This document shows, one piece after another, positions 8,690-63,888 of a DNA stretch of 64,000 nt. The notes beneath the pieces were generated by a model. It did not search any database, was not told the origin of the DNA, and was given only the letters and a program-made list of their open reading frames with translations. This DNA comes from Nostoc linckia FACHB-104 (lineage in GTDB: Bacteria; Cyanobacteriota; Cyanobacteriia; Cyanobacteriales; Nostocaceae), in the NCBI RefSeq assembly GCF_014696615.1, contig NZ_JACJQJ010000043.1:1-64000 (forward strand), written 5' to 3'. The translations under genes and the position numbers were made by a program. Each line of letters opens with the position of its first letter. Position 1 is the stretch's first letter.

Positions 8690-8734
8690 CTGATAGTGTG
8701 AGTTCTATGTAGCCTATAATCCCAGCAATCAGCG

Positions 8735-46784: not shown

Positions 46785-48452
46785 TTATTGACTCTGATGT
46801 TCTTGGTTATCTCTATTATCATGTCCTTGAACTTTGATATAAGCAAGGTAATAAGTAATACAAAATAACAGCACAGTTGCTAAAGCAATACTCACAATTA
46901 GTAAAATATTGAAATTATTTTTTCTTGGTTGATAAATCGTATTTTCAGGTTTCTGTTGTCTATGTACAAAAGGAATTGGTCGCGGTTGGTATATGGTATT
47001 TTCAGGAGTTACCGCGCTAATTTGGTTCTGCAACGGTTGCACAGTCGTATTTTCAACCTCTTGGTCGCTGGAATTGCTACCCTGTCGCGGTTGATAGATT
47101 GTTTGCTCTGGTTTTGCAGGTTCTGCACCTATGGGAGTACGTATTTGAAAAATAGTATGATCTGGTGCTGCTTGCTGGGGATTAGATGGTTGCTGTTGCG
47201 CTATTGTAGTTTCAGGTATGTGTGCTTTGGGAATATTCTCGTTATTGGAACCTGATTGAGGTGGTTGCTGTTCAAAATTTTGCTGTTTAGGAACAGTTTC
47301 TTCATATGAACCTCGTGGAGTTTGTTGCTGTTTAGAAACAGTTTCCTCGTATGAACCCTGTGGAGTTTGTTGCTGTTTAGAAACAGTTTCCTCATATGAA
47401 CCTCGTGGAGTTTGTTGCTGTTTAGAAACAGTTTCCTCATATGAACCTCGTGGAGTTTGTTGCTGTTTTGGCTCAATAATAATTTGTCTTGGCTGTACAT
47501 CTGTTGAACCAGTTACAGGTTGAATAGCAGCTTGCAAAGCTAAACGTAACTCCTCAACTGAAGCAAAACGATTGCCAGGTTTTTTTTGCAAACATTTGAT
47601 AACTACAGCTTCTAATTCAGAAGATAAATACTCGCAACCAGGTTGTTGTTTCAATGGTATAGGCGATCTATAGCCATGAGCGTGCAACCATGAACTTTCA
47701 CTAACTCTACTCCCATCAACACTTAAACCAAAAGGATCGGCCGCACTGAGCATTTCATAGAGAATAATTCCCAAACTATAAATATCTGCCCTTGTGTCTA
47801 TATTTTTATCGTTTTGAATTTGCTCTGGTGATGAATAGCGAAATGTACCAATAAATGTCTTAGTAAGGTTTGTTTGCTCAGAAGAGTCACTCTTAATTTT
47901 GGCGATACCAAAATCTAAAATCTTGACCCAGTCGCCAACATCTGTAGGTAATAAAAATATATTATCTGGCTTCAAGTCGCGATGAATAACCTTGATCAGT
48001 TCGGGATTATTGTTACCATCGCGCTGCATGAAAACTCCTTGATGAGCAACTTGCAAACCTTTGCATACTTGCGCGATAATTTTCACTGTTTGCTCTGGTG
48101 ATAACTGCTTTTCCCTTAGCATCAAATATCTCAATGTTTGCCCGCGCAGATACTCCATGACATAGAAGGGAAAACCTTCTTCGGTTACTCCACAATCGCT
48201 AATTTCAATAATATGTGCGCTTCGCAGGGCAGCACAGACTTTAATTTCTCGCTCAAAGCGTTTTCGCATCTCACCAGATGCTAGCCATTTATCTTTGAGC
48301 AATTTTAATGCTACTTCCTTACCAACACGAGTATCAGTGGCAAGGAATACTTCCCCCATACCACCTCCGCCTAAGCTTTGCTCTAAACGATATCGCTGAT
48401 TATCACCAATCAAACGACCTATCCAAGAATTTGACGAAAGTGGAGAGTTCAT
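46785..48452 (-). CDS. Membrane-anchored Ser/Thr protein kinase (Hanks type)
   Basis: A eukaryote-like Ser/Thr kinase. In the longer frame (start 48503) the residues are: glycine loop LGGGGMGEVF (44-53), catalytic Lys67, HRDLKPDN (174-181), and DFG 197-199. The preferred start is the ATG at 48452. The kinase domain ends about residue 330; a glutamine-rich disordered linker follows, with four 15-residue repeats (KQQQTPRGSYEETVS) and several (T/E)NTIYQPR or TIYQ motifs. One membrane helix near the C-terminus (ILLIVSIALATVLLFCITYY) leaves about 20 residues outside. The repeats are rich in Thr, Ser and Tyr and could be autophosphorylation sites (inference). It is not in an obvious operon; its position between the TPS/CHAT locus and the eCIS genes gives no clear partner. 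Confidence 0.92.
   Translation of the reverse strand: MNSPLSSNSWIGRLIGDNQRYRLEQSLGGGGMGEVFLATDTRVGKEVALKLLKDKWLASGEMRKRFEREIKVCAALRSAHIIEISDCGVTEEGFPFYVMEYLRGQTLRYLMLREKQLSPEQTVKIIAQVCKGLQVAHQGVFMQRDGNNNPELIKVIHRDLKPDNIFLLPTDVGDWVKILDFGIAKIKSDSSEQTNLTKTFIGTFRYSSPEQIQNDKNIDTRADIYSLGIILYEMLSAADPFGLSVDGSRVSESSWLHAHGYRSPIPLKQQPGCEYLSSELEAVVIKCLQKKPGNRFASVEELRLALQAAIQPVTGSTDVQPRQIIIEPKQQQTPRGSYEETVSKQQQTPRGSYEETVSKQQQTPQGSYEETVSKQQQTPRGSYEETVPKQQNFEQQPPQSGSNNENIPKAHIPETTIAQQQPSNPQQAAPDHTIFQIRTPIGAEPAKPEQTIYQPRQGSNSSDQEVENTTVQPLQNQISAVTPENTIYQPRPIPFVHRQQKPENTIYQPRKNNFNILLIVSIALATVLLFCITYYLAYIKVQGHDNRDNQEHQSQ
47284..47467 (-). repeat. Four tandem 45-bp repeats in the kinase linker
   Basis: Each 45-bp unit encodes KQQQTPRGSYEETVS with one or two changes (PQGS in one unit, ETVP in the last). 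The high nucleotide identity indicates recent expansion by slippage or unequal crossing-over. Confidence 0.8.
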
Positions 48453-48503
48453 TTTACAGTCACCCATCCTAAAATTTAATAAAGTTCTTATAGCTTGAGG
48501 CAA

Positions 48504-49546: not shown

Positions 49547-50185
49547 ATGAGTAATGCACTGTCTATCGCCGCTGTTACAGCAGTGATCAAGAACTTACTA
49601 GAAAATGGTCTAGTTGGTGATGCGATCGCAGCTAGTGTCGGAGATGTAGTTGTGACAGCCCTGCCACCAGATAAAATCCAAGTTGGAACAGACGAACGAG
49701 CGCAAATCAACGTTTTTTTATATCACGTTACCCAGAACCGCAACGTTGATTGGATCTCTCCTGAATTCCGCGATCGCCACTCGCGCATTAGCAATAATCC
49801 ACGCTCCACAAATCCACCGCTAGCTCTTGATTTACACTATTTATTAACAGCTTACGGGCCAAAAGATTTTCAAACAGAAATTTTACTTGGTTACGTAATG
49901 CAATTGTTACATGTATCACCTATAATTAAATCTGAAATTATTGAGATTGCTTTGAAAAATGCCTCTGAAACGAGTACTTCCAGCGTATTTTCACAAGCTC
50001 TTGCTGGGGTATCTGTATCTGATTTAGCAAAGCAAATCGGGCAAATAAAAATTAGTCCAGAGTTTCTCAATATGGAAGATACTTCTAAAATTTGGTCGGC
50101 TTTACAAACTAATTATCGACCTTCGGCTATTTATAATGCATCAATGGTATTAATTGAAAGTGAGAGTACAAATAAACCAGATTAG
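49547..50185 (+). CDS. eCIS cap protein, DUF4255 (Pvc16/Afp16 N-terminal family)
   Basis: 212 residues of the DUF4255 family. The N-terminus AVTAVIKNLLENGL, then VTALPPDKI, ERAQINVFLYHVTQNRNVD and PPLALDLHYLLTAYG are characteristic. In contractile injection particles such as Afp and Pvc, the member of this family caps the distal end of sheath and tube (family knowledge). GAGGA at 49536-49540, six bases before the ATG, supports the start. It is on the plus strand while the structural genes at 57-64 kb are on the minus strand, and it converges on the DUF4157 gene. Length and motifs look complete. Confidence 0.88.
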   Translation: MSNALSIAAVTAVIKNLLENGLVGDAIAASVGDVVVTALPPDKIQVGTDERAQINVFLYHVTQNRNVDWISPEFRDRHSRISNNPRSTNPPLALDLHYLLTAYGPKDFQTEILLGYVMQLLHVSPIIKSEIIEIALKNASETSTSSVFSQALAGVSVSDLAKQIGQIKISPEFLNMEDTSKIWSALQTNYRPSAIYNASMVLIESESTNKPD

Positions 50186-50289: not shown

Positions 50290-51141
50290 CTATTGACCAC
50301 CGCCTAACACGCTGTCAGCGACACCACCTAACATACTTCCTGCTATTCCTCCTAACGGACCAAACATTCCGCCGATCATTCCACCAATACCTGATAAACC
50401 TCCACCACCACCTTGTTCCTGATCTTGACCACCACCCAAAAGACCACCCACTAAGTTACCTAATCCTCCTAAAAGACCACCTTTGCATTGAACGAGGTGA
50501 GTGCTGTTTTGGATTGGTGGGATTGTCTTGAAGTTACTAGTTGCACCAGGAACTTGGACTGGCTCGCCTTTTGCAGCTTTCGCTCCTATTTGGTCTGCTT
50601 CTGATTCTAAACTAGGATCAGCATTGATGGGCGCACCTTTACTTTGGTGCGGTACTGCGACTCGTCCGGCTCTTTGTTGCACTACATGAGTTAGTTCATG
50701 TCCTAACAATGCTTGTCCTGATGAACTTTGAGGGTTATATTGTCCAGGAGCAAAGTGAATATTGTTACCTTGGGTAAAAGCTAAAGCACCCATCGATGTT
50801 GCTTTATGACTTTCTGGATGGATATTAACATCGCCAAAACTTGTACCAAAAGAATTTTCCATTTTTGACCGAACTGGTGCAGGCATGGAACTGCGAGAAG
50901 CAGAAGATGAGTTATTGTTAGCCTGGTTTTGTTTGGAAGGTTGAGCCGTTTGCTCTGACTTCATCTGGGTAATACTGTGACCGAAGCGTTTTGCTTGCTT
51001 GAGTTGAGTATTTAAGTCTGCTTGCTGAGTCTCTGACTTGCTTTGCACAGCAAACCCACGACCTTCAAACTGATTATCTATGGTTGCAGTATTTGTTGAG
51101 GTTGACTTTGACTTTTTCTGAAGGAGTTGTTGAGTACTCAT
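50290..51141 (-). CDS. eCIS-associated DUF4157 zincin-like protein with glycine-rich tail
   Basis: 283 residues. The N-terminal leader has FEGRGFAVQ (25-33) and ADLNTQLKQAKRFGHSI (41-57), then a disordered linker. The DUF4157 domain runs from about residue 86 (MPAPVRSKMENSFGTSFGDV) to 190, with the metal motif HELTH at 148-152 and LESEADQ at 178-184 supplying a likely third ligand. VQCKGG (217-222) ends the domain, as in many eCIS members. The C-terminal 60 residues are almost all Gly, Leu, Ile, Met and Ala (GGLLGGLGNLVGGLLGGG, GSMLGGVADSVLGGG), like a glycine-zipper, so a membrane-active effector tail is plausible (inference). DUF4157 proteins are the typical cargo/accessory proteins of eCIS loci. 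Divergent from the cargo gene at 51408. Confidence 0.85.
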   Translation of the reverse strand: MSTQQLLQKKSKSTSTNTATIDNQFEGRGFAVQSKSETQQADLNTQLKQAKRFGHSITQMKSEQTAQPSKQNQANNNSSSASRSSMPAPVRSKMENSFGTSFGDVNIHPESHKATSMGALAFTQGNNIHFAPGQYNPQSSSGQALLGHELTHVVQQRAGRVAVPHQSKGAPINADPSLESEADQIGAKAAKGEPVQVPGATSNFKTIPPIQNSTHLVQCKGGLLGGLGNLVGGLLGGGQDQEQGGGGGLSGIGGMIGGMFGPLGGIAGSMLGGVADSVLGGGQ

Positions 51142-51287
51142 AGTAGTTTAGCGATTGGTATAATGTTTAGCCTGCACTCGGTTGTGAGTTTTTTAAATCG
51201 CAAATTATTGTTAAATAGTACAGATTTACCGACAAAGTAGTTACAACTACAACAAAATTATAACTTAATTGATTTGGGGTAAATCTC

Positions 51288-51319
51288 CAAAAAAATTAGA
51301 CTTAAGTCTAATTTTTTTG
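51288..51319. promoter_or_regulatory. Perfect 32-bp palindrome, candidate operator
   Basis: Centre AATTAGACTTAAGTCTAATT, extended on both sides by A5/T5 and a C:G pair; every base of the 32 is symmetric. It lies in the gap between the divergent DUF4157 (start 51141) and cargo (start 51408) genes, two bases before a -35-like TTGACT. This placement suggests a repressor site. The A and T flanks would also allow a terminator hairpin. Confidence 0.6.
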
Positions 51320-51321
51320 TG

Positions 51322-51349
51322 TTGACTTATTTAAGTGTGATTTTAATAC
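51322..51349 (+). promoter_or_regulatory. Sigma70-type promoter for the cargo genes
   Basis: TTGACT (51322-51327) and TAATAC (51344-51349) are separated by 16 bases. The pair is oriented towards the cargo gene at 51408, leaving a leader of about 50 bases. Confidence 0.45.
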
Positions 51350-51407
51350 TGGGAATTAGAGTTGATAATTCATTTTTTAAGTCAAAGAAATAAATAGTTA
51401 TTTTAGT

Positions 51408-52400
51408 ATGTATCGCAGAATTTATGATCGCCAAAATCAGAAAGAACTGTCATCCTCAACTACTCTAGATTGGGGACTACCTGTAGTGCGTCCATTAGCG
51501 ATGCAACTAAAAACTAGATCTAGACTACCAGACTTAAAAGCATCTCTAAGTCAGGCAGAACTTTATGGTCATCACCTCGGTAAAATTCAGCCTGCTACTA
51601 TTTCCACTAGCACACCAATACAAATGCTCTCAGCTTCCGAGGAAGAGGAAAAGAAGCGAATGTCTGGTTTGGATTTAGGAGCAAGCACATTAACTGGTAA
51701 TCAAACTGTGCTGGATACAGTTTTGCATATTAAAGATTGGTCGAAAAAAATTAATAATAGCCATAAAAAAAATATAGATGTTAATTATAATAAACACTCT
51801 GCCGATAAAGTGACCAGCCCAACGGAAACATCTGAAGCAAAAAATCAAGGTAAAGACAAAAATTCTGATGAGCATTTAACATCACCAACAAAAGACAAGG
51901 TTTCGGAGAACAAAGCAGCAGAACTTACCTCACTTCAACTAGACCCAGAAGTGGAAAGATTATTAAATAAGAATAAGGGGATTAAGAATAATTTACCGGG
52001 GTCGGGTGGGGTTACTCAAGAACAAAATAAAGATAACTTTATCGCTCCTCCTTCTACATACAATCAAGATAAAAATAGCCCAAGACCCAAAGAAGGAACA
52101 CGCGGTAAATTTTTAGCTAAGAAAGAAGCTATGAATCTATTGGGGGATAACAAGGGATTTGTTACTACTCAGCTTGCAGTTAAGAAAGTTCCTATTGGAG
52201 ATACTGCTAACTCCGAAAGTGCTAAAGCTAAAGATAATCAGCATCAGGTGAAATTGAAAAATGCTGCGGAATTGGTTCGTGACCAAGTAATAAATGAAGA
52301 TAGAGAAGTGAAGGAACACGTTCGAGGAACGTTTAATTTAGAGCCGGATATTGTTGCAAAGGAAGGTGGCGAAGAGTTGATATTACAGAAAATGTCATGA
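51408..52400 (+). CDS. Putative eCIS cargo protein with leader motif, Lys/Asn-rich
   Basis: 330 residues, no recognised domain. The N-terminus carries the leader shared with the DUF4157 protein and two other genes: LPVVRPLAMQ (24-33) and PDLKASLSQAELYGHHL (41-57). IQMLSASEEEE (71-81) sits where DUF4157 proteins have IQPKLTIG-like residues. The rest is hydrophilic and probably mostly disordered, with many Lys, Asn, Asp and Glu and no cysteine. There is no signal peptide or membrane segment, so export must use another route; loading into the injection particle is inferred. Its last four bases overlap the start of the next gene (ATGA), which implies translational coupling. Confidence 0.75.
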   Translation: MYRRIYDRQNQKELSSSTTLDWGLPVVRPLAMQLKTRSRLPDLKASLSQAELYGHHLGKIQPATISTSTPIQMLSASEEEEKKRMSGLDLGASTLTGNQTVLDTVLHIKDWSKKINNSHKKNIDVNYNKHSADKVTSPTETSEAKNQGKDKNSDEHLTSPTKDKVSENKAAELTSLQLDPEVERLLNKNKGIKNNLPGSGGVTQEQNKDNFIAPPSTYNQDKNSPRPKEGTRGKFLAKKEAMNLLGDNKGFVTTQLAVKKVPIGDTANSESAKAKDNQHQVKLKNAAELVRDQVINEDREVKEHVRGTFNLEPDIVAKEGGEELILQKMS

Positions 52401-53140
52401 AAAACCAAGATTATCGGCTTCACACTCAAAGGAAAAACAATCAAAGCCTTTCATCGGTTGCCTCTAGTACTCCAGTTCCAGGAATATTTGAGTCGCGTCC
52501 GTTCGTAGTACAGCAGAAACAGCAAAGAAGTTCACAGCAATCTGACTTGAAGGCATCGCTGATGGGGGCAGAACGTTACGGTCATCACCTCGCACGAATA
52601 AAAGCTGCTGGTATGTCCACTGGTACACAAACGCAAGCAAAGCAGACAAGTGGGGAGGGTGAGGAGAATTACGATCAAGAAGGTGATCGTGTGATATCCC
52701 AGGAATCAAGGATTAATACACCATCTTCGGCACAATTAACTCAAGGGCGTATGCAAGAGGGACATAATGAAGTCCCCAAGGTAATACAAAGGAATGGAGA
52801 TGGACAAAAGGAAAAAGAAAAGAGCAAGGTTACAGGGCGAGAAGGACTAGGACAAGACTTGTTTGAGAATATCCAAACCGGAGGAAATAGGTTGGCCTCA
52901 ACTGTGTTTAAAGCCATGAATTTTGGAATGCATATGGAAGGCCAACCGCTCAACCCGGAGCATGAAAAAGTCCTAAGACAGAAATTAATAGAGGAGAAGG
53001 CGGGGGTTTTTGACACATTGAGTGCGGAAAATCCCCATGTGATGAATACAAATGGATCTACCCCTTTATATTGGTTAGGAAAGAACATAGTACACAGGCC
53101 TTTGCAAAAGTGGCTGAATTATAAGAAGGGGAATGAGTGA
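52397..53140 (+). CDS. Putative eCIS cargo protein with leader and DUF4157 remnants
   Basis: 247 residues. Leader: FESRPFVVQQ (31-40) and SDLKASLMGAERYGHHL (49-65). It then has NYDQEGDRVISQ (91-102), which resembles the KYEQEADRVA segment that precedes the DUF4157 zincin in larger relatives, and KVIQRNG (128-134), which resembles the segment that follows it. The HExxH core between them is missing, as if deleted. The C-terminal 110 residues (GREGLGQDLFENIQTGGN, STVFKAMNFGMHM) are unlike anything I recognise and may be the effector part. It overlaps the upstream cargo gene by four bases, so both are made from one transcript. Confidence 0.75.
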   Translation: MKNQDYRLHTQRKNNQSLSSVASSTPVPGIFESRPFVVQQKQQRSSQQSDLKASLMGAERYGHHLARIKAAGMSTGTQTQAKQTSGEGEENYDQEGDRVISQESRINTPSSAQLTQGRMQEGHNEVPKVIQRNGDGQKEKEKSKVTGREGLGQDLFENIQTGGNRLASTVFKAMNFGMHMEGQPLNPEHEKVLRQKLIEEKAGVFDTLSAENPHVMNTNGSTPLYWLGKNIVHRPLQKWLNYKKGNE

Positions 53141-53535
53141 AACGCAACGGCTTGGAGACATAGACGGACAGTGAAAAAGGAAAAATATCTACAGAGCGTA
53201 TGCTCATCTAGTGGATAGACAGAGGAAACCATGTGCGTTCGTCGCTCTATTGTGCTGCGCCCTTCCACAGCGTAACGCACCAACCAAAAACCAATCGAAG
53301 CGATCACCCTACTCAAAACACTATCAACCCAGTTCTCAGCCATAGCCACCAGCGTTTAGGGTAAGTGCGATCGCCTCATCTTCCAAGCACTTATAGCAAC
53401 AGTCTTAAAAGTAATGTGATCGCTCCAGTATGATGGTTGATGAGCGTGCGATCGTCTACTTCCGTAGAATCACCCTATCGCAACTATGATTGGGCGATCG
53501 CACTACAATGATTGGAATGACGAAGCGAACCCAAT
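53141..53535. other. Intergenic region rich in GCGATCGC-like sites
   Basis: About 400 bases between convergent genes with several CGATCGC or GTGCGATCG sites. No gene or RNA is supported; a 76-codon reverse frame at 53119-53349 is Cys- and Arg-rich and looks random. Confidence 0.35.
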
Positions 53536-53739
53536 CTAAGTGCGATCACGTCTTTGGAGCAGTTGCGCTAATTGCTTGAGATCGTCTTCATTTAGTCCTC
53601 CAGTTTGTCGGATCACCCCTGGTTCGTTGCGTAGTCGCTCCGTGTAAATCCGTAAAGCTTCATCGTCTGCGCGGTGAGCAAGTACATAAGCTCTGAGCTC
53701 TTTTCGGTTCATCTGTTGAAAGTTAAGCTTCTGTGTCAT
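53536..53739 (-). CDS. Small DUF6887-family protein
   Basis: 67 residues from the ATG at 53739 (two more ATGs sit directly upstream). The core FQQMNRKELRAYVLAHRADDEALRIY (in part) with E..RLRNEPGV is the pattern of a small cyanobacterial family (DUF6887) that is usually encoded directly after a DUF6888 protein. That arrangement is present here, with overlapping frames. It may be a toxin-antitoxin-like or regulatory pair; the function is not established. Confidence 0.75.
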   Translation of the reverse strand: MTQKLNFQQMNRKELRAYVLAHRADDEALRIYTERLRNEPGVIRQTGGLNEDDLKQLAQLLQRRDRT

Positions 53740-53894
53740 CATCAAACTCCCAGCGTCCGTTTCTTAAGATGATGATGCCTATAGTCTCGCCTGCTAATAT
53801 GTAAATCTCTTTCCGTTTTTCGTCATAGCGGAATAGATGGATGTCGGTCATAGAAGTTAGACAATGTTTGGTAGACTCGCACACAGGCAAGCAT
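53723..53894 (-). pseudogene. DUF6888-like small protein, apparently frameshifted
   Basis: An ATG at 53851 opens a 42-residue frame with IHLFRYDEKRKEIYILAGE, the heart of DUF6888. The expected N-terminal part is in a different frame just upstream (MLACVRVYQTLSNFYD, from 53894), and the two meet at about 53853. A one-base insertion would explain it. Either the gene is broken, or the short form from 53851 is used. It overlaps the DUF6887 gene start. Confidence 0.45.
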
Positions 53895-53934
53895 TTGCTC
53901 TACAGTTACCAAGATTTCCTTCTTCTTTTTTTCG

Positions 53935-55392
53935 CTAAATCACGCCTTGCATATAAAGCGTCTTAAGCCTGTTAAGTTTATGCTGATGATAATGCAAAGA
54001 ATTGAGATTACCTGTTGGGTCCATATAAAGTGATGGCTTAAATTTCTTAGTTTTTTTCAGATTGTTCATGTAATCTTTCTGGACAGGGGCAACGGGTACT
54101 GCTGAGTAATAGTGATCTGAAGTTACGTAAAATCTATGGTCAACTTTTTGATGCTGTCCTGTACTTGGATTTAAAGCTTGACTGTTTACTGAAGTATGCA
54201 ACAATCGGTCAGCATTCCTTGGGTCTAGTTTATTAGTTTTTGTATGACCAGTAACCGGAGTTACATCTGCCTCACTCCATCGGTTTAACCTGCTATGAGT
54301 AGCATCATTTGCTTCAGCACCTATTTGGTTAGTTGTGTTTAACGCTGGTAGTAGGCTTTCAACAGCATCTCCTGGATTCTTTGCCCATGCTGCTTTTCCG
54401 TGTGTAGGTCTATTTCCAAACTCTTTAGCACCTATAGCATGGACAGGCTGTGCTGTTGCATCTTCTAATACACCTGCTTTGTTTAATGCAAAGCCAGGTT
54501 TAAGTTTACCTTTGTTACCTTTGAAATTTTTCGCCAATGTGTGTGTAGCAGATAAATCTCCACCTGCATCTAGTGTCTGCATAAAGGGGTTTGCTAATTC
54601 AGATACCCGCATTATTTCTTTTTGTCTGTCTAACATCCCTTGACGCGGTCTATCTTTGGTACTAAGAGGATTATTTAATTTATGTTCTAAACCACCAGCA
54701 TTACCCCCAGCAAGTGTTTTTACTTTTTTTCCTGCGGGAAGAAAGCTAGTAGTTGTGGTAGTTTGCGTGGAGCCTGCTGTCACACTTGGACTAGACTGTG
54801 ATGTATTAGTAATTGTTTGGTTACGAGGTCCATAAACTCCAGGTGCCAATCCTGCCGATTCAACAATTTGACCACCTGTCAGCTTACCCTTGTTCAAATT
54901 ATCCAATTCACCCTGCCGCTCATTTTTCATTCTTTTAGAGAAATTGGGCGGTTCCTGCATTAAATCTGTAGGTTCTGGTAGTATAGTTCCCTTATCTTTC
55001 CCTTCCATAGTCTGTCGCAAAGTATCCATCTGCGCTTTCATTCGCAGCCTAAATTGGTCTTGAGTTTCACCTGCTTGCTTTAATGAAGCACCCGGATGCT
55101 TTTTACCATCAAGCTTGAAGCACTGAATTACTTCTGTTGGTTGCCCTGTCTCCAGTTTTGGCTGTATTGCTTGCAGGGCTGATTTATTATCAAAATTTCT
55201 CTGACTCAGGCTATGTCCATAACGCGCCGCCCGCATTAAAGATGTTTTCTGGTCTTTATGTTGTGCCTGAGTTACAGAATAAGTCTCCGTAACAAAGCGA
55301 TGGGGTTGAAACATCCCCAAATTTCCAGAGTTGGCAGAAGTCGATACTTCTGTCCTAATATTCTTCATTTGGGTGGGGAGTCGGTTTGTCAT
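53935..55392 (-). CDS. Putative eCIS cargo protein with leader, large unknown C-terminal part
   Basis: 485 residues. Leader: MFQPHRFVTE (27-36) and DQKTSLMRAARYGHSL (47-62). IQPKLETGQP (76-85) is close to the IQPKLTIGQPGD segment of DUF4157 proteins and runs straight into VIQCFKL (88-94), the segment that normally follows the zincin, so the zincin has been skipped precisely. The remaining 390 residues are hydrophilic with a Thr/Ser-rich linker (about 205-240). The C-terminal third has many His, Tyr and Asn residues (VDHRFYVTSDHYYSAVPV, NLNSLHYHQHKLNRL) and may be a catalytic domain I cannot name. It is downstream of the MTase-TPR gene on the same strand. No signal peptide. Confidence 0.75.
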   Translation of the reverse strand: MTNRLPTQMKNIRTEVSTSANSGNLGMFQPHRFVTETYSVTQAQHKDQKTSLMRAARYGHSLSQRNFDNKSALQAIQPKLETGQPTEVIQCFKLDGKKHPGASLKQAGETQDQFRLRMKAQMDTLRQTMEGKDKGTILPEPTDLMQEPPNFSKRMKNERQGELDNLNKGKLTGGQIVESAGLAPGVYGPRNQTITNTSQSSPSVTAGSTQTTTTTSFLPAGKKVKTLAGGNAGGLEHKLNNPLSTKDRPRQGMLDRQKEIMRVSELANPFMQTLDAGGDLSATHTLAKNFKGNKGKLKPGFALNKAGVLEDATAQPVHAIGAKEFGNRPTHGKAAWAKNPGDAVESLLPALNTTNQIGAEANDATHSRLNRWSEADVTPVTGHTKTNKLDPRNADRLLHTSVNSQALNPSTGQHQKVDHRFYVTSDHYYSAVPVAPVQKDYMNNLKKTKKFKPSLYMDPTGNLNSLHYHQHKLNRLKTLYMQGVI

Positions 55393-55478: not shown

Positions 55479-57089
55479 TTAAGTAGCATTCAAAGATACA
55501 AATTCTTCGTCAGCTTTTTCCGCTTCGATTTGAGAAATCCATCCTCTTGCCATTATGTATGTTGGATTAATTTTGATTGCAGTTCCAAACATTTCTAACG
55601 CACGTTCAGTTTCGCCTAAAAAGTAATGGCAAAGTCCCATGTTATATAGAGTTATTTCATTTTCTCCAAAATAATGAATCGATTGGTGAAAATAATGCAA
55701 GGCTTTTTCGTATTCACGGATTTCTTGAAAAAATAAACCAATATTGAAAAAAGTATCAATTGAATAGGGTTTAAAATAAAAGTTTTCGGCTATTCTATCC
55801 ATGATTGTCATTAAATCGCTCACAACCAAAAGTGAAGCGTATCCTGACCTGAGTTGCTCGATGATAATGTCGATGGAGGAATCGAAAACATGAGTGTCCC
55901 ACTGGGTTGTGCTTAAAAAAGTTACTAGCATTTCCAATTTGGAAAAAGGTTTAGTGCGTTCTATATGTTCGTAAATGTTATAAAAAGTTGCATGACCAAA
56001 CGCATCTAGAAAAGTTTCAACAGCCTGCCGAGTTTCAGGCATGGTTTTGAAGTTAAATCCCAGTAAAAAAATCGATGTATTCAGACTTTGTTCAGTAAAC
56101 TGGTGATAGTAGTCGCCACCCCACTGTTGGAAATATTTAGCAATGATACGAAAATCAAGCATCATATAAAATGAACCGTTGAAAATGCAATATGGTTCTT
56201 CTTGCTGATATAAATCACCATATCTTGAAAAGCCCATGTCAGAACAAATCAGGCATAATTTCTGATTTGATATATCCATTAAATGCCGAATTCCTCGTAA
56301 ACTTCCAATCGGAAATAATAAATAACCTTCCTCAATTTGTTCCCGGTAATAACAAAGTACTGCATCCAGATATTCATCTTGATAGTATGGAATACTTATA
56401 TCTTTGTAAGAAAATACAACTTCTAATTTTTCCTGTTCAATCGGCTGATTATCTTTAACATTATTTTGTGTTGTTGATACAGTTGCTAATCCTATTTGAA
56501 ATTTACCTTCTGAAACCCGAAAGATATCTTGTGGTACTGAGTCAAAGATGTAATTTGCTAATACTAGTAATGGATTGTGTAACTGCTCTTCTGAATGAGT
56601 ACTTAAAACTTTGCCGCTACCTATTAAATTAATTTCTGTATCTTTTTCGACTTCAAAACGTGCAAAATCTAAAATACCGATTTGAATGTAATTTTGAAAT
56701 GCCGAATGTTCTTTCCAATATTGAATATTTTTTTCAGCAAAATCTGTCATAATATAAACAAACTTTACCTGTGTTAAATTCAATGCCTTTTGCAATTCTA
56801 GCAAGCGTTTAATCACATAAAAGCTAAAAGTGCCTGACCCTGCTCCTAGCTCTAGAATGTAAATAGGTTCTGAAGGCTTATAGATATTTTGATAAATACA
56901 ATCTTGAAAAAAGCGAATGATTATGTTCGCATAAGAATTAGCAATATATGGGTTACTGGTAATATAATAAGGTACTTTTGTCCAAGCATTGATGCCCTCA
57001 TGGTTATAAAAATCTCTTTGATATTGCCATAAATTCGATTTTGATAAGGCAGTTTCTGTCTGTAATATGAGTTTTTCTTGAGATTTCAT
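55479..57089 (-). CDS. Methyltransferase-like/TPR fusion protein in the eCIS operon
   Basis: 536 residues. The first half has a class I SAM-binding motif (YILELGAGSGTFSFYVIKRL) and FVYIMTDFAEKNIQYW as motif II, with an insertion rich in aromatic residues after it. The C-terminal 110 residues hold two or three TPR units (FFQEIREYEKALHYFHQSI; LGETERALEMFGTAIKINP). It lies between the AAA+ ATPase gene (83 bases upstream) and the third cargo gene (86 bases downstream). It might modify a particle protein or effector, or be a cytoplasmic chaperone-like protein for cargo; neither is proven. The nearest general family is the MidA/SAM methyltransferase group, by motif only. Confidence 0.65.
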   Translation of the reverse strand: MKSQEKLILQTETALSKSNLWQYQRDFYNHEGINAWTKVPYYITSNPYIANSYANIIIRFFQDCIYQNIYKPSEPIYILELGAGSGTFSFYVIKRLLELQKALNLTQVKFVYIMTDFAEKNIQYWKEHSAFQNYIQIGILDFARFEVEKDTEINLIGSGKVLSTHSEEQLHNPLLVLANYIFDSVPQDIFRVSEGKFQIGLATVSTTQNNVKDNQPIEQEKLEVVFSYKDISIPYYQDEYLDAVLCYYREQIEEGYLLFPIGSLRGIRHLMDISNQKLCLICSDMGFSRYGDLYQQEEPYCIFNGSFYMMLDFRIIAKYFQQWGGDYYHQFTEQSLNTSIFLLGFNFKTMPETRQAVETFLDAFGHATFYNIYEHIERTKPFSKLEMLVTFLSTTQWDTHVFDSSIDIIIEQLRSGYASLLVVSDLMTIMDRIAENFYFKPYSIDTFFNIGLFFQEIREYEKALHYFHQSIHYFGENEITLYNMGLCHYFLGETERALEMFGTAIKINPTYIMARGWISQIEAEKADEEFVSLNAT

Positions 57090-57172: not shown

Positions 57173-59167
57173 TCAAACCCACCCCTTAACCTCAGTATCA
57201 GTCAGTGTTCTCTCCAATTTAATATACTCGCTCTTAGCTGCCTGCAATATATAATTCATCGTCACCACATCCCCAGCATCTGCAGCTAAAAACGCCGCAT
57301 TCATCGCAATACTGCGAATATTACCTCCCGCAACATTCAACTGTCCCAACTTCTGATAATCTAAATTGTCTGTGGGTGTCGCTTTGGGGAAAATCCGCCG
57401 CCAAATCTCTGCCCGTTGAGTGGAATCTGGAAAGGGAAACTGAACAATAAAGCGGATACGACGCAAAAATGCTTGGTCTAATGAACTTTTTAAGTTAGTT
57501 GTTAATACTGATAATCCCCGGTAACTTTCCATCCTTTGTAATAGATAACTTACTTCGACATTAGAATGGCGATCGTGGGAATCTTTAACTTCTGTACGCT
57601 TACCAAACAAAGCATCGGCTTCATCAAAGAGTAATATTACACCTCCCAATTCTGCGGCATCAAATACCCTACCCAGATTCTTTTCTGTCTCCCCAATATA
57701 CTTACTGACTACCGCACTTAAATCAATTCTGTATAAATCTAGCCTTAATTCTCCTGCTAAAACTTCTGCTGCCATTGTCTTACCGGTACCACTCAAACCA
57801 GCAAACAATGCACTAATTCCCAATCCTCGCTTGCTTTTACCGCCAAATCCCCATTGATCGTATACTTTGGCTCGTTGTTTGACTTGGAGAGCAACATCTC
57901 TTAGGACTTGTAACTGCGACTCTGGCAATACCAAATCTTCCCAATTAGCAACCGAATCAATCCTTTGTGCTAAATCATCCAATTTGGGACGGGCTTGGGC
58001 ACGGCAAGTATCCCAGAGAAGATGGTTAAAATCGGCTGTAACTTCTGATTCCTGGGCTTGTTGCCACTGGACGCGAACTTGAGAACAGGCCGCTTGAATT
58101 ACGGGAACACTGAGATTAAACTGCGACACTAACTTACTGACTTCAATGTTTATCGATGCCGATGTTCCATTTAAAGCCTGCTCCCAGATAGTATACTGTT
58201 CAGGAGTTGTCGGGCGTTCGATATCAAAAACTAACGCAGGTCTTAAACGCGATCGCCTGCGATCTGTGGTAGTAATAATTATCGGACAACGCATCCATTC
58301 GCATAAATAGGTAATTGTGGATTCTCTGGTTGTGTCTGTGCCTTCTAAATCATCGCAGTCTATTAATAATGCACAATTAGCTAAAAGTACTTCTCGCTCC
58401 CAAAGTTGCTTAAACTTGCTGATTTCACTGGGAGTTGTGGGCAAAGCATGGGCTGCAATTACATACAAATTTAGCTCTAAATATTGACAAGCAAGCGCTG
58501 CGATCGGACGTTTGCTAGCAACTTCATTCCCGCATAGTTGCAATATTGGCAATTTAAGAAAATCATAAATATCTACCCACCAAGCAGCAGCCATTTTCTC
58601 CATTAACTGCAAGTGAGATGAAACCAATTTTTCTGTAACTCCTACAGGTTCCAGCATTCCCAGCAAACGCTCATCTATGTGCTGCACGCCAATTAAATAA
58701 TGCAGTATTCGCTCATCAATCCGTAAAGGACTAGTCATCAAATCGCTACCAGTACCTACTTCAATTAATCGCCATCTGCGTAATGCACCTGCGGGAGTAA
58801 AAGCACTCCAATGCATATCTGGCAAAACTGTCATTGCTAAACCAAACGTAGGATAAGTACGCTGTGCATTGCCACAAGCTGCAGCGCAAAGTATAGAAAA
58901 ACTAGCATCAAGTTCCACACCAGCGCACAACAACAGTAAATTCTTTTCAAAATCGCTTAAATTAAAAATGCTGCACAGTTGATCTAAAGGTGTAACTTCA
59001 GAATTTGGCAGCAAGTGTTCTGTTGAAGTTTTGGCAATTAAATTTTCGCTCTCACCTGCAAGTAAACTCGGGTCAGCATTTTGCAACAGTTTCTCTCGTA
59101 TCTGTGCCAGATATGTTAACAAATAGCTATAATCTTCAACTTGGTTTTCTGGAAATGTTGCTGCCAT
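57173..59167 (-). CDS. eCIS AAA+ ATPase (Pvc15/Afp15-like)
   Basis: 664 residues. The N-terminal 380 residues are a winged-helix/AAA-like regulatory region with no intact P-loop. The C-terminal AAA+ domain has Walker A GLSGTGKT (Lys463), Walker B VILLFDEADALFG, sensor 1 LTTNLKSSL and the arginine finger AFLRRIRF. The same ATPase type is found in almost all eCIS loci and is needed for particle assembly in Afp/Pvc (family knowledge). The preceding gene in the operon is DUF4159-like (54-base gap). Confidence 0.92.
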   Translation of the reverse strand: MAATFPENQVEDYSYLLTYLAQIREKLLQNADPSLLAGESENLIAKTSTEHLLPNSEVTPLDQLCSIFNLSDFEKNLLLLCAGVELDASFSILCAAACGNAQRTYPTFGLAMTVLPDMHWSAFTPAGALRRWRLIEVGTGSDLMTSPLRIDERILHYLIGVQHIDERLLGMLEPVGVTEKLVSSHLQLMEKMAAAWWVDIYDFLKLPILQLCGNEVASKRPIAALACQYLELNLYVIAAHALPTTPSEISKFKQLWEREVLLANCALLIDCDDLEGTDTTRESTITYLCEWMRCPIIITTTDRRRSRLRPALVFDIERPTTPEQYTIWEQALNGTSASINIEVSKLVSQFNLSVPVIQAACSQVRVQWQQAQESEVTADFNHLLWDTCRAQARPKLDDLAQRIDSVANWEDLVLPESQLQVLRDVALQVKQRAKVYDQWGFGGKSKRGLGISALFAGLSGTGKTMAAEVLAGELRLDLYRIDLSAVVSKYIGETEKNLGRVFDAAELGGVILLFDEADALFGKRTEVKDSHDRHSNVEVSYLLQRMESYRGLSVLTTNLKSSLDQAFLRRIRFIVQFPFPDSTQRAEIWRRIFPKATPTDNLDYQKLGQLNVAGGNIRSIAMNAAFLAADAGDVVTMNYILQAAKSEYIKLERTLTDTEVKGWV

Positions 59168-59221: not shown

Positions 59222-60421
59222 CTACCATTTGGCATTATTATCTTCTTGTTGCAGTCCAATTAACCGATGTCGTTTCCAAGCATAAGAGATAATATTAATT
59301 CCAAATTCTTGAGCAGTACGAATCGCCACTCTGGGCAAAGTTAATTCTCTATCTAATCCCCAAGCAGATGCTAAATCACCAATAATTAAAATCATTCCAC
59401 CACCAGTAAATATTTCAATCTGTCGTTGATTAATTATTGGTAGGGCTGCAAATAAAAAAGGACGATTTCTTAGGGGTTGATCGCGCCGTAATTCTTTAAT
59501 ATTTTTTAAAGGAGTTGCTAATTGCTCTGCCAAAGCATGACTACTTTGGATTAAAGCCTCAGCCTCCGCTGGTGCATCAATTAGTAGTATTCCTCCTGTA
59601 TTTAAGTAATTCTTCAGCGATTCAAATTCTATAGTATTTATAGATAATGCTTCTTGACCAGTAAGATATAGTAAATCGTAGTCTTGCAGATTTTCTGTAA
59701 AACTGACTTGTCCAGCCTCCTCAAGACCTCTTAAATATGGGTATAAAGATTCAATTGACTGTAAAAAGTAAGATAAATTAAAAAAATTGCGGGCACAATC
59801 TCCATCAGCATGATTTATTTGTGCCATACGTACAATAGCCTGGGGACGCGCTTGTGCTTGACGGCGATACCGTAAATCTATATTGTTATATCCAGGAAAA
59901 AAAACATCACTAGGTTGAGTAATATCCTTTTGTCCTGGCTGTAAAAGGATACGACAAATTTCTATATCAGAAATATTTGGTGTAGAATTTCTTTGGTCAA
60001 ACCGATAAGCTTCTCTAACAATTTCTCTGGAATTTGGCGATCGCAATTCTTCTGGGTCTACATAACTGACTGTTAAATAAACCATAATAGGTTCAGTATG
60101 GGCAACTTCTAAATCAACAGGAAAGTCAAAAGATACAGGTACAACTATTAAATTACCTGCTAAATCTATCGCTATACCTGGTTGAATTTGTACCCAACGT
60201 CCATCTCGATATTTTGCTTCTACCTTGCTAGGTGCAGGAATATCCCGCACTCCTAAACCGCAAACAATTCCTGGTTGATTTAAACATTGATAGTGAGTAT
60301 TTTGTCGCTGACGATGATAATCATGGGCTTTACGCCAACGCTCGGCATTGATCAGTAAACCATCTGAAGCTTGCAGACGGTCAAATGGTTGAATTTCTGG
60401 CGGGGGGAATGGATGGGACAT
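59222..60421 (-). CDS. eCIS-associated protein with C-terminal DUF4159-like domain
   Basis: 399 residues. The N-terminal half (FDRLQASDGLLINAERWRKAHDY in part, GIVCGLGV, IQPGIAIDLAGNLIVVP) resembles a beta-rich module seen in phage-tail and eCIS proteins of cyanobacteria. The C-terminal half (YDLLYLTGQEALSI, LKNYLNTGGILLIDAP, PLRNRPFLFAALP) is the DUF4159 pattern, a glutamine-amidotransferase-like fold whose usual catalytic Cys is not apparent here. It lies between the ATPase and the tail-protein-I gene on the same strand. It may be part of the baseplate or of its anchoring; that is inference from context. Confidence 0.7.
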   Translation of the reverse strand: MSHPFPPPEIQPFDRLQASDGLLINAERWRKAHDYHRQRQNTHYQCLNQPGIVCGLGVRDIPAPSKVEAKYRDGRWVQIQPGIAIDLAGNLIVVPVSFDFPVDLEVAHTEPIMVYLTVSYVDPEELRSPNSREIVREAYRFDQRNSTPNISDIEICRILLQPGQKDITQPSDVFFPGYNNIDLRYRRQAQARPQAIVRMAQINHADGDCARNFFNLSYFLQSIESLYPYLRGLEEAGQVSFTENLQDYDLLYLTGQEALSINTIEFESLKNYLNTGGILLIDAPAEAEALIQSSHALAEQLATPLKNIKELRRDQPLRNRPFLFAALPIINQRQIEIFTGGGMILIIGDLASAWGLDRELTLPRVAIRTAQEFGINIISYAWKRHRLIGLQQEDNNAKW

Positions 60422-60656: not shown

Positions 60657-61685
60657 TTAATTGTTAGAAGTTTCTATATATAATTCGTAGGTGCAAAAAG
60701 CAGGTCTTTCTTGTTCTATAATTCGTCTAATTAATTCCTCATGTATGTTTTGTCCTTGTTTGGCACGCAATCTTACTACAAAATGATATGCTCTCCCTCC
60801 TCCTAATACTGCATTACCAAGTTCGGCATCATTCAGAACAAAACTATTACCAAAAGGTTCTGTAATACTTATATGTTTATCACCTTCATTGGGTAAATCT
60901 TCATCTAGAGGTAATCCTGTATATAGGTGCAAATAAAGGCGTAGACCCTGACGAGTGCCTCGCCATTTATAGAGTTCAACTGCACGACGAATTAAACGGC
61001 GTTGTTGTGGTAAATCCCACACAGAATCTACTTGCCAAGCAACCCAATGGGCTAAAAAAGGTAATAGTTTCCGTGGTGATGTCAAAGGGTCAAGGTTCGC
61101 CCACATCGTCGAAAAACTATCGATAACTGGTTGATAAGCCTCTTCAAATATCTTCATAAAGCGACCAATAAAGTCTACTTCTCGATATAGAAGCGGCAAA
61201 AATTCCATGTAATTAGACCAAGGACGTATATATATACTAAATTCATCGCTGCGTTCAATCCTTTGTCTGTCTGTTCCTGGATCTATATGGAGAATGACAA
61301 AGCAGCGAAAGTTAAGGTCTAATTTATCTTTTTTATTTGGGGCGATCGCTTGTTGATCTTCAAAAAATGTCCCAGGGATATGAAAATAAAGTACAGATTG
61401 CATTTGTTGGCGCGGGGCAATTTCATTACCTTCTGTACCAATGTGACACCACTCAGCAGGAAAATCACCCTCGACTTGAAACTCTAACCTTAACGTATCT
61501 GCCGTCAAGTTTTTAACTAGCACAATCATCTCGCTTGGTTCTCCAGGATGCAACACCAAGCTATGTTCTGCGCTCTCAACTGTTTGTGTCCCAGTAAATG
61601 CCCAAGCTACACCAGGTAAAGCTTCAGGAATTTGCATTGGGGTGAAGTCAATTTTGACTGCTGGGTTATAACGACTTTGCACCAT
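60657..61685 (-). CDS. eCIS baseplate protein, phage tail protein I-like (Afp12-type)
   Basis: 342 residues. The N-terminal 150 residues form a beta-sandwich-like region (VLHPGEPSEMIVLVKNLT, LEFQVEGDFPAEWCHIG). The C-terminal part has the tail-protein-I signature: FLPLLYREVDFIGRFMKIFEE, LDPLTSPRKLLPFLAHWVAW and RRLIRRAVELYKWRGTRQGL. In contractile particles the member of this family joins the baseplate wedge with the J-like protein. It is encoded one base after the J-like gene's stop, so they are translated together. The length is typical of eCIS forms. Confidence 0.88.
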   Translation of the reverse strand: MVQSRYNPAVKIDFTPMQIPEALPGVAWAFTGTQTVESAEHSLVLHPGEPSEMIVLVKNLTADTLRLEFQVEGDFPAEWCHIGTEGNEIAPRQQMQSVLYFHIPGTFFEDQQAIAPNKKDKLDLNFRCFVILHIDPGTDRQRIERSDEFSIYIRPWSNYMEFLPLLYREVDFIGRFMKIFEEAYQPVIDSFSTMWANLDPLTSPRKLLPFLAHWVAWQVDSVWDLPQQRRLIRRAVELYKWRGTRQGLRLYLHLYTGLPLDEDLPNEGDKHISITEPFGNSFVLNDAELGNAVLGGGRAYHFVVRLRAKQGQNIHEELIRRIIEQERPAFCTYELYIETSNN

Positions 61686-61686
61686 A

Positions 61687-63888
61687 TTAACGATTAATCA
61701 CATTGACGACATGACCGGAACGTAAATTGCTATCATCCCAAGAACACACTAAACCTTGTACGCCTGGGTCAATCACTCTTTCTGGCGATGGTTGCCTTCT
61801 CCAATTGTCTCCTTGCTTGCGTATAGGAAAGAGCAGCACTGGCCCGAGATATCGTACTCCTCGCGCTTGTTGCAGTAATGCAACGATATCTGACTCATAT
61901 ACTGGCCGCCCAAAAGCCCAGCCTTTTCCATCTACTCCTCCAATTAAAGGATTTAAAAATTTATATAAGGAGATTTTAATATCGCGGAGAATTTCTTCAC
62001 GAGCAAAAGGATTATCATAAATTGGTTCTAGGGCTATTTCTGTTTGTATGGAAACTCCGATATATTCTGGCTGCTGGAGTTGTATTCGCACTCCTAACAA
62101 CCTTCTTTCGTCTAGATAAGTCAATACTTGCTCTTGCAGTGCGGGACTCAAGTCAAATTTTTCGGGAGATAAACCTTGCCCATCAGCGATCGCATCTGTA
62201 TTTGCTTGAGGCACAATCATCAAACCCACTGTACCTGCTTGTCTATTGCTATCAGCAGGCAAACAGCAAACACGCGCGATCGCACCGGAAGCTGCTCTTT
62301 GTGCTAGTATTTCAAAATCTTCAGCTGTCACTGCGCGATCGCGAGTACGCAAGATGCGTGGAGCCTTGATGACAGCTTGCTCTAAGGATTCAGCATCTGC
62401 GCCATTGATGGCTGGTTTATGGTTCGTCACACTCGCAACATAGGGTATTGCAGACTTTAAAAATTGCAACACACCGCTTTGTACGTTTCCTTGTCTACCT
62501 CCACCTGTACGATAAGCAACCATTCTAATCTCAGCGCCCCGTGGAGGAATAGCTCCATACTGATGTTCTTGCTGGGTTCTTTCTCTGTCGCTCAATTGCA
62601 CAATAGTATCATCTGCTGTTGCTTGCTGAATACGTGTGCGAATTTCTGTTTCATGCTTAAGTTTGCTGGGTTCTCTAATCAAAGGGCCAAACTGAACTGT
62701 ACCAGTCACAGAATCAATAATGTAGTGTAAATCTTGCGAAGTACTATCAGCGAAATCTCTGACTTCTTGCCATCTTTGAGGTAATCCACCAGGAGGAATA
62801 ACAATGATATATTCATTGTCTCGACGTTCTAACACAGGTGCTTGTTGCAGTTGAAAAGTTTGCCCTGGTTTACCATTGCTGATATCCAAGCGTTCATTTT
62901 CGATCAGGTTACTCTGACTGGCTCGCACCGTACCACCAATAGACCTAACTCCTATGGCATTAATCCGTGGCGGACGGTTATAACCAGATTGATTTCTTTC
63001 TAGTTCTGTAAGCACACAACGCAGCCAGCGACCACGATAAGAAGTAAAATTAGTCACAGGCCAGTTTTGTGGTAAATGCAAGCGTACTTCTGTTCCTTGC
63101 TCTAGACTCCCTCCTTGTTGATTGATTTCGTAAAAACTAAAGCCTTGGGTTTTATCATCTTTTTCTTGTAACAAAATCATCTGCCAATCTTCCCCATCCC
63201 AAGCTTCCCAGCAACGAGGTGGGTAGTTAGGATTAATACCAGTAGGGGTAGCAGTCGCGCCTTGAAAAGTAATTTCTAAAACATTTCCATCCAAAGGATC
63301 ATCAGAGTTAATCACCAAGTAAAAACAATTTCCTGGCTGGGGTTCCTCTTCAAAAATAGGTTGCTCATTACCTTCCCAAAAACCATCCGACCGACGATTC
63401 CACATACTTGTGACTCTTTCTCGTAGCGACTGGGGTATTTGTTCCACCGTTCGCGCTGTTAAGAAGTGTAATAGTCGCGGTTTGGCGATAATCAGCCGAG
63501 AGTCAGTACTAAAAGTAATCGCTGCTGTTGTTTCAGTTCGTATTGTAGCTATCTCAACTCCTGTAGGAATTGTGTAAGCTTCTGGTAAGTCCGAACTTAA
63601 ATAAAACGTTAATTCAGTATGCGCTGGTGCAGGAGGTTGCAGACGAATGCCTAATAACTCTAGAAAAGCCACATAATTTTTACGTGGTACTTGGTTAAAT
63701 CTCAGTAGCATTTGGTCAGTTAACCAAGCAAATAATTCAATCAGCGTAATTCCCGGATCACTAAGATTGTGGTCTGTCCATTCGGGACAGTAGCGAGGAA
63801 TACGCATAATGCATTCTTCCACCAAATCATCAAAGCTGCGATCATCTAAGTTGGAAGAAGGTAATTTAGGTAAAAAGTCGAATTCCAC
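61687..63888 (-). CDS. eCIS baseplate J-like protein (Afp11-type)
   Basis: 733 residues, a putative baseplate wedge protein. The N-terminus LDDRSFDDLVEECIMRIPRY with TDHNLSDPGITLIELFAWLTD is the eCIS/phage form of gpJ. The centre is beta-rich (LQQAPVLERRDNEYIIVI), and PHRKNYV- and RAVTAEDFEILAQ-type blocks precede the C-terminal GYVGVSIQ-like segment (YIGVSIQTEIALEP) and DIVALLQQARGVRYL. With the tail-protein-I partner it should form the wedge that bridges spike and sheath. The upstream end of the operon is beyond the window: the gap 63889-64000 shows no further gene start. Confidence 0.9.
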   Translation of the reverse strand: MEFDFLPKLPSSNLDDRSFDDLVEECIMRIPRYCPEWTDHNLSDPGITLIELFAWLTDQMLLRFNQVPRKNYVAFLELLGIRLQPPAPAHTELTFYLSSDLPEAYTIPTGVEIATIRTETTAAITFSTDSRLIIAKPRLLHFLTARTVEQIPQSLRERVTSMWNRRSDGFWEGNEQPIFEEEPQPGNCFYLVINSDDPLDGNVLEITFQGATATPTGINPNYPPRCWEAWDGEDWQMILLQEKDDKTQGFSFYEINQQGGSLEQGTEVRLHLPQNWPVTNFTSYRGRWLRCVLTELERNQSGYNRPPRINAIGVRSIGGTVRASQSNLIENERLDISNGKPGQTFQLQQAPVLERRDNEYIIVIPPGGLPQRWQEVRDFADSTSQDLHYIIDSVTGTVQFGPLIREPSKLKHETEIRTRIQQATADDTIVQLSDRERTQQEHQYGAIPPRGAEIRMVAYRTGGGRQGNVQSGVLQFLKSAIPYVASVTNHKPAINGADAESLEQAVIKAPRILRTRDRAVTAEDFEILAQRAASGAIARVCCLPADSNRQAGTVGLMIVPQANTDAIADGQGLSPEKFDLSPALQEQVLTYLDERRLLGVRIQLQQPEYIGVSIQTEIALEPIYDNPFAREEILRDIKISLYKFLNPLIGGVDGKGWAFGRPVYESDIVALLQQARGVRYLGPVLLFPIRKQGDNWRRQPSPERVIDPGVQGLVCSWDDSNLRSGHVVNVINR

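Follow-up and report, generated by a model that had tools for sequence, protein, structure and literature searches.

A modular N-terminal leader on unrelated proteins of a Nostoc linckia contractile injection locus co-segregates with its Pvc15-type ATPase

We analyzed a stretch of 64,000 nucleotides (hereafter the window) from Nostoc linckia FACHB-104, whose genome spans 9.4 Mb. The window covers 64 kb of contig G000:C120, which is 68.9 kb long. An extracellular contractile injection system (eCIS) occupies the right end of the window, and four proteins encoded between its cap and ATPase genes carry homologous N-terminal leaders of about 60 residues on different bodies. We found that this leader ends at a module boundary, that it is linked to eCIS loci, and that it co-segregates with one lineage of Pvc15-type AAA ATPase and not with the body or DUF4157 core, the cap or the baseplate. 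The leader is rather likely to be a loading address that would be read by the cognate ATPase, and it would probably tell the cell which machine carries which cargo. For the question of how eCIS particles choose their cargo, the leader provides a sequence-defined natural tag whose end is sharp and for which a candidate reader can be named.

Homologous leaders on four proteins with different bodies

Genes A to D share the interval from cap to ATPase with a methyltransferase-TPR gene. The leaders of A to D have two conserved blocks, with F or Y before a GH motif in block 2 (F and Y subtypes). Gene A (50290..51141, minus strand) encodes an F-subtype leader followed by a DUF4157/eCIS_core zincin domain (residues 86-159), a VQC site, and a Gly-rich tail. 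The other three have Y-subtype leaders: gene B (51408..52400, plus strand) with a body conserved across loci of the window's ATPase type (type I, defined below), gene C (52397..53140, plus strand), whose start overlaps the stop of B, with an orphan body, and gene D (53935..55392, minus strand; 485 aa), likewise with an orphan body. The leaders, each on the strand of its gene, comprise residues 1-56 of A (50974..51141), 1-56 of B (51408..51575), 1-64 of C (52397..52588), and 1-61 of D (55210..55392). Block 1 reads FEGRGFAVQSK in A (51037-51069) and FESRPFVVQQK in C (52487-52519), and block 2 reads DLNTQLKQAKRFGHS in A (50974-51018), DLKASLSQAELYGHH in B (51531-51575), DLKASLMGAERYGHH in C (52544-52588), and DQKTSLMRAARYGHS in D (55210-55254). 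A third motif follows the leader as PIQML in B (51615-51629, plus strand) and AIQPK in D (55156-55170, minus strand), the latter with an additional VIQC (55120-55131).

The initial annotation had described a common N-terminal pattern on four proteins with different bodies, and this description holds: residues 1-70 of A to D are homologous in 6/6 pairs (0/500 shuffles), and residues 71 to the end show no homology in any of the six pairs by the shuffle test. When the leader profile was run over the whole 9.4 Mb genome, only A to D matched (E<1e-27). The next-best match, the fifth (E 0.17), is internal to a different DUF4157 protein and immediately precedes the domain of that protein, and none of the genome's three other DUF4157 matches has a leader match better than this. 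Gene A carries PF13699 (E 4e-28; 97.8 bits at a cut-off of 22), which is absent from B, C, and D; Pfam assigns these three to no family at E<=0.1. Pfam and NCBIfam scans of the first 60 residues of the window proteins gave no match, and no search was aimed at type VI secretion systems (T6SS). A hydrophobic core of the Sec/Tat type was not seen, the maximum 12-residue mean Kyte-Doolittle (KD) value in residues 1-60 being 0.99 in the four window proteins and 1.27 in all 70 leader ORFs described below, as judged from KD values and not by a dedicated predictor. The predicted structure of A has a mean pLDDT of 51, with moderate confidence only for the DUF4157 core and one helix, and a fold search with it gave no match below E 0.48.

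The leader family and its module boundary

Five leaders were scanned against one genome per species (84,980 genomes), which yielded 10 leader loci. The ATPase is on the same contig in nine of these, and the tenth is a 6.3 kb contig from a genome holding another of the loci. Across 386 genomes of the phylum, 39 of which have Pvc16_N, profile A2 matched in six (E<=0.001), all carrying Pvc16_N, and profile A3, which represents the type-2 leader, matched in seven, six of them with Pvc16_N; the exception (G014) is a 71-aa ORF. Leader matches are thus not spread regardless of eCIS, and in this respect the sequences support the earlier reading of the leader as a candidate loading or targeting signal. 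Among 217 genomes of the same family, which also includes genomes named Nostoc, Trichormus, Brasilonema, and Rhizonema, 20 had a leader match at E<=1e-5. We assembled 70 leader ORFs from 16 genomes, excluding L108 and the same-contig copies L036, L037, L039, L100, L101, L107, L110, L112, and L116, and including two near-body-less remnants (L104:709-927 and L102:8276-8506). Similar leaders are present on other cyanobacterial DUF4157 proteins, as the initial annotation had anticipated, and on proteins lacking this domain.

The bodies behind the leader are largely unrelated, again as had been proposed. The first 49 leaders form a single BLAST cluster (1042/1176 pairs, E<=1e-3) and their bodies 24 clusters (99/1176 pairs, E<=1e-5); all 70 ORFs give 30 body clusters (E<=1e-4), two of them remnants. 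The largest are the DUF4157-like cluster (18 ORFs) and the B family (10/70 ORFs). A Pfam scan of 28 type-I leader proteins gave families above cut-off in four, namely an HNH nuclease (L059:10001-10744), a VirD5-like domain (L063:9956-10891; E 3.9e-16 to the Agrobacterium VirD5 family), a DXD glycosyltransferase (L099:9901-11031), and a phosphodiester glycosidase (L108:2114-3832). The VirD5 match hints at a eukaryotic target for some cargos. Although B has the leader, its body is conserved across 10 loci, down to a constant C-terminus, and the protein may act in an accessory or scaffold role and not as a toxin.

From the start codon to GHx the leader measures a median of 59 residues (range 42-87; 70 ORFs). 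AlphaFold2 models of 56 leaders have a mean pLDDT of 58 with one helix at 51-60 (block 2) and the highest confidence at block 1. Compared with 100 other ORFs, the 70 leader ORFs are hydrophilic (KD of the first 35 residues -0.91 vs 0.02, p 1.3e-18) and positively charged (residues 6-21, +2.1 vs +0.3, p 2.9e-12). Several short or interrupted ORFs consist of the leader with little or no body (L041:8097-8348, L077:154-333, G482:C8:241260 in L102, and the L104 remnant above), and these are likely cargo-gene remnants.

The end of the leader is also seen in the DNA. When two genes fall in different body clusters, their DNA homology ends at a median of 1.7 codons past GHx (115 pairs; interquartile range 0 to 5.7; range -27 to +50), and at 2.0 codons in the 107 pairs left after removing eight that involve remnants. 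The 115 pairs are not independent, and in a recount with one value per body-cluster pair, 54/73 fall within -3 to +8 codons. The clearest case is gene C against its counterpart in G493 (L105): the two are 84% identical over 591 nt that run from the last part of B through the C leader, the homology stops at window position 52590 (residue 64), and unrelated bodies of 183 and 457 residues follow. Because DNA homology between genes with different bodies ends just past the GH motif, the leader is a swappable module.

Three loci have extra copies of the ATPase 3′ end, reaching codon 662-664, interspersed with their cargo genes (L061:8328-8792; L065:7537-7857, 8704-8925, and 9756-9869; L105:8578-8730), and an internal ATPase piece is found at L066:11730-12329. 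It is as if units of ATPase 3′ end, leader, and body were duplicated or inserted by recombination, resembling orphan toxin cassettes. The sharp boundary at GH and the duplicated 3′ ends ahead of extra cargo genes could also mean that the main reason for the leader's retention is recombination, for which it would supply 5′ homology in the gain of toxin bodies, with little role as protein. We consider this highly improbable on three counts. Two protein-level subtypes are kept across genera, with the F-subtype motif [TS]QLxxAxxFGH[SND] in 14/14 type-I DUF4157 proteins and Y before GH in 50 of the other 56 ORFs; the six remaining, with F, include two type-2 DUF4157 proteins missed by the DUF4157 search pattern. 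The motif is kept even though many DNA pairs are just 68-78% identical. The third element, [VIPAM][VIM]Q at 6-60 residues past GHx, lies mostly outside the DNA homology and yet occurs in 27/30 body-cluster representatives (shuffled mean 4.7, max 11). One body was found with both leader subtypes (L061:9330-10199 with Y, L068:12235-13041 with F).

The third element raises another possibility, namely that the leader is a pro-region cut by the DUF4157 zincin at [VI]Q sites, which would mask or mature toxins and carry no address. Its frequency in the representatives fits such a cleavage site, with [VI]Q at chance level in two later stretches, and so does the VQ site of all 14 aligned type-I DUF4157 proteins. 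The concordance with the ATPase described below is left unexplained by proteolysis, and one DUF4157 effector was reported to inhibit growth independently of its metalloprotease motifs (PMC11297309); a pro-region is accordingly very unlikely in our view. In the same 14 proteins the leader precedes the DUF4157 domain and lies outside the Pfam model. A Gly-rich tail follows the VQ site in most of them (gene A: 50290-50500), and L060:12313-12804 has leader and tail without the DUF4157 domain.

Co-segregation of the leader with the ATPase

The Pvc15-type ATPase of the window (57173..59167, minus strand), so labeled from its domains (PF00004, 4.8e-24; WHD PF22977, 5.6e-21) and gene context, is the proposed leader reader. 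Two separate searches scored the other genomes, one for ATPase identity to the window's copy and one for matches to the leader profile. An identity of at least 72% defined the type-I ATPase (next best 61%) and E<=1e-12 a strong leader, within the gap between 4.1e-15 (weakest best match of 15 genomes) and 1.8e-11. With these cuts, which were chosen after the lists had been seen and lie in gaps, strong leader and type-I ATPase occur in the identical 15 of 217 family genomes, and a strong leader occurs in 0 of the 202 others, 136 of which hold another Pvc15-type ATPase (Fisher test, 1.9e-23; 5.5e-21 among the 151 genomes with any match). Clustering within 20 kb of eCIS structural genes was a check proposed in the initial annotation; of the leader matches in the 15 genomes, 63/68 are on the ATPase contig, at most 19.6 kb from the ATPase gene.

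We compared the ATPase, Baseplate_J, Tail_P2_I, DUF4159, Pvc16, and kinase genes of 29 systems, some genes being found only in part of the systems. In G458 and G459 the structural genes are 67-75% identical to those of the window (baseplate 69-75%, Pvc16 73-75%), the ATPase is only 54-55% identical, and the leader is another one (type III). Similarly, in G531:C87 Pvc16 is at 77% and the ATPase at 55.5%, and a protein that lacks the HExxH motif carries a type-III-like leader. The reverse is seen in UBA11371, G465, G079, and G041, which have an ATPase at 70-72% and the window-type leader with a Pvc16 at 30-33%. In UBA11371 and G465, the two in which a baseplate was found, Pvc16 (31-33%) and baseplate (43-53%) are no closer than those of type-II systems. 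In G519 the type-I leader is on three proteins beside a type-I ATPase. Its two DUF4157 cores average 71-72% identity to type-2 and 46% to type-I DUF4157, and their leaders 50-55% to type-I and 29-30% to type-2 leaders. The leader search of this genome found no type-I DUF4157 body, and the stretches sampled around its ATPase gave no cap or baseplate match. The discordant systems and G519 therefore show that the leader follows neither body, cap, nor baseplate.

Trees were built for 27 systems, excluding those in which Pvc16 was not found. The leader dialects I, II, and III need three changes on the ATPase tree, the minimum, and five on the Pvc16 tree, and dialects I and III each form a single clade on the ATPase tree (100/99). 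A single type-I clade is rejected on the Pvc16 tree (p-AU 6.6e-53; 1.1e-4 in an earlier 25-system tree) and likewise, with 11 systems, on that of the baseplate (p-AU 2.6e-8). The Pvc16 tree also rejects a single type-III clade (p-AU 3.0e-11). Type II is not a single clade on the Pvc16 tree. The long branches of UBA11371, G531, G034, and the window genome's own C106 make their single placements unsure; the discordant groups G458/G459 with G493, and G079/G041/G465, lie in starred clades.

We propose that the leader is a modular, mostly disordered N-terminal address made of FxxRxFxVQ, a short helical DLKTSLxxAERYGHH, and a looser [VIP][VI]Q 6-60 residues on. The Pvc15-type ATPase of this eCIS lineage would recognize it, probably through its N/D1 part, engage the cargo, and feed it into the assembling particle. 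Any body behind the leader would become cargo, and bodies would be swapped by recombination just past the GH motif. Other dialects would be in use in other eCIS lineages, whose ATPases have diverged. Between ATPase types I and II, residues 1-440 are 22-59% identical (in blocks of 40) and the catalytic block 441-600 is 75-88% identical. That DUF4157 proteins have the F subtype and most others the Y subtype suggests loading at two different places or times.

The main competing explanation is co-transfer of a linked cassette, in which ATPase and leader genes move together and dialects match by co-inheritance; the leader would still be a cargo signal, with the tube, the spike, or the DUF4157 protein as its reader. 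The two genes are indeed usually neighbors (<=20 kb in the 63/68 cases above), three loci have ATPase 3′-end fragments scattered between cargo genes, and in Streptomyces the DUF4157 protein Sle2 has as interaction partners a core component of the particle and an effector's N-terminal region (PMC13277306). However, Pvc16 is equally close to the ATPase (about 120 bp in L105) and yet discordant, the baseplate is discordant, the type-III genes of G458 lie about 14 kb from the ATPase, and G519 combines type-I leaders with the lack of a type-I DUF4157 body in the leader search. We therefore regard co-transfer with another reader as unlikely.

Besides this proximity, several observations count against the proposed reading. 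Five of the 68 leader matches are on contigs other than that of the ATPase. Five more genomes, with ATPases at <=61%, give weak leader matches (1.8e-11 to 8e-6), so that the perfect match between leader and ATPase depends on the E cut; the weak matches inspected are type-2 leaders, which are remote kin of type-I leaders (hhalign probability 98%; bridging sequences L087 and L109). In 11 loci, 13/56 ORFs of at least 130 aa between ATPase and Pvc16 have no leader, and 6/70 leader ORFs lack [VMT]Q in residues 19-50. An aromatic residue in the first eight is not enriched (0.46 vs 0.62, p 0.3), a feature that is statistical and not absolute in eCIS signal peptides (PMC11297309). Finally, dialect labels II and III come from profile A3 and from a motif judged by eye, and type II requires two changes on the ATPase tree, where it is not a single clade.

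Other dialects, known cargo signals, and neighboring genes

Pvc16_N matches the window's genome five times. Contig C106 carries a second Pvc15-type ATPase (54-55%), at 1.7 kb from a 642-aa protein (L120:11776-13701). The first 75 residues of that protein match those of the contig's DUF4157 protein, which lies about 76 kb off (score 104, against a best of 78 in 1000 shuffles). The bodies of these two proteins do not match (404/1000 shuffles as high), and their leaders do not match the window leaders beyond chance (best of eight comparisons, 44/1000 shuffles as high). One genome thus holds two unrelated shared leaders, on C120 and C106. We tentatively consider an orthogonal address code, somewhat short of an even chance, in which each co-resident eCIS would have its own Pvc15 ATPase and leader dialect, the cell would sort cargos by N-terminal tag, and an ATPase swap would re-target a cargo set. 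On contig C99 of this genome, two DUF4157 proteins (L045:7143-10700 and 10942-11724) begin in yet another way, with repeated FF (KPFF..FF..QSTxFF); this third style may be the dialect of a third eCIS.

Loading of the Photorhabdus PVC needs disordered N-terminal signal peptides of 50-70 residues and Pvc15 (PMC11495950). The leader resembles these peptides and those of Serratia Afp in being N-terminal, 50-70 residues long, disordered, and hydrophilic on functionally varied bodies, in loci that also hold a Pvc15-type AAA ATPase. By analogy, it would work like an eCIS cargo signal peptide, sharing the features compared except the aromatic one. Unlike the PVC and Afp peptides, it has a single motif conserved over 16 genomes, tracks the ATPase lineage, and has machine-specific dialects; it is also less extreme in disorder (58) than the published peptides, which were called at a mean pLDDT <40. 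A machine-learning study of eCIS toxins reports that no specific conserved signal sequence was detected (PMC11297309). Gene A has the domain of DUF4157 (eCIS_core, PF13699) proteins, which is missing from B, C, D, and from the majority of the 70 leader proteins. Streptomyces Sle1/Sle2-type effectors likewise have a conserved N-terminal part, variable C-terminal domains, and an adjacent DUF4157 partner, but their N-terminal part is a tape-measure-like coiled coil of about 440 residues, in contrast to the 60-residue disordered tag found here (PMC13277306).

The leader also recalls polymorphic toxins and T6SS effectors, in which an N-terminal part is common to unrelated toxic bodies; the MIX, FIX, and RIX marker domains are such tags of T6SS effectors. 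No description of this leader was found in the open-access literature, a coverage that leaves out most subscription papers and bioRxiv preprints. Mass spectrometry has been published for Anabaena particles (PMC8894136), but these data could not be linked to the leader because the loci compared are not that system: their sheath, spike, and tube proteins match the Anabaena chains All3325, All3320, and All3324 only distantly. The leader of gene C had no match in PLSDB plasmids (E<=0.01), and among IMG/VR contigs 62 stretches fit the pattern of the A4 leader with 0 relatives.

Natural swaps separate the candidate reader from the structural genes. The leader offers a direct way to list cargos, even on other contigs (e.g., G528:C261), a means to map the recognition site on the ATPase, whose residues 1-440 diverge between dialects, and prospective orthogonal loading tags for reporters.

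The remaining eCIS genes of the window flank the leader genes. The Pvc16-type tail terminator or cap (Pvc16_N, PF14065 3e-42), an eCIS marker, is at 49547..50185 (plus strand). Beyond the ATPase lie a DUF4159 protein (59222-60421), the Pvc12-like baseplate protein Tail_P2_I (60657..61685, minus strand; PF09684 1.1e-8), and the Pvc11-like Baseplate J (61687..63888, minus strand; PF04865 2.9e-12). A Ser/Thr kinase gene near Pvc16 (46785-48503) is present in 10/16 type-I systems and in G458/G459 and was not found in the sampled stretches of four type-I systems with divergent Pvc16; it tracks the structural genes rather than the ATPase. The PF02636 methyltransferase with TPRs between cargo gene D and the ATPase (55479-57089) has a counterpart in Dulcicalothrix desertica PCC 7102 that is 71% identical (L067:4733-6334).

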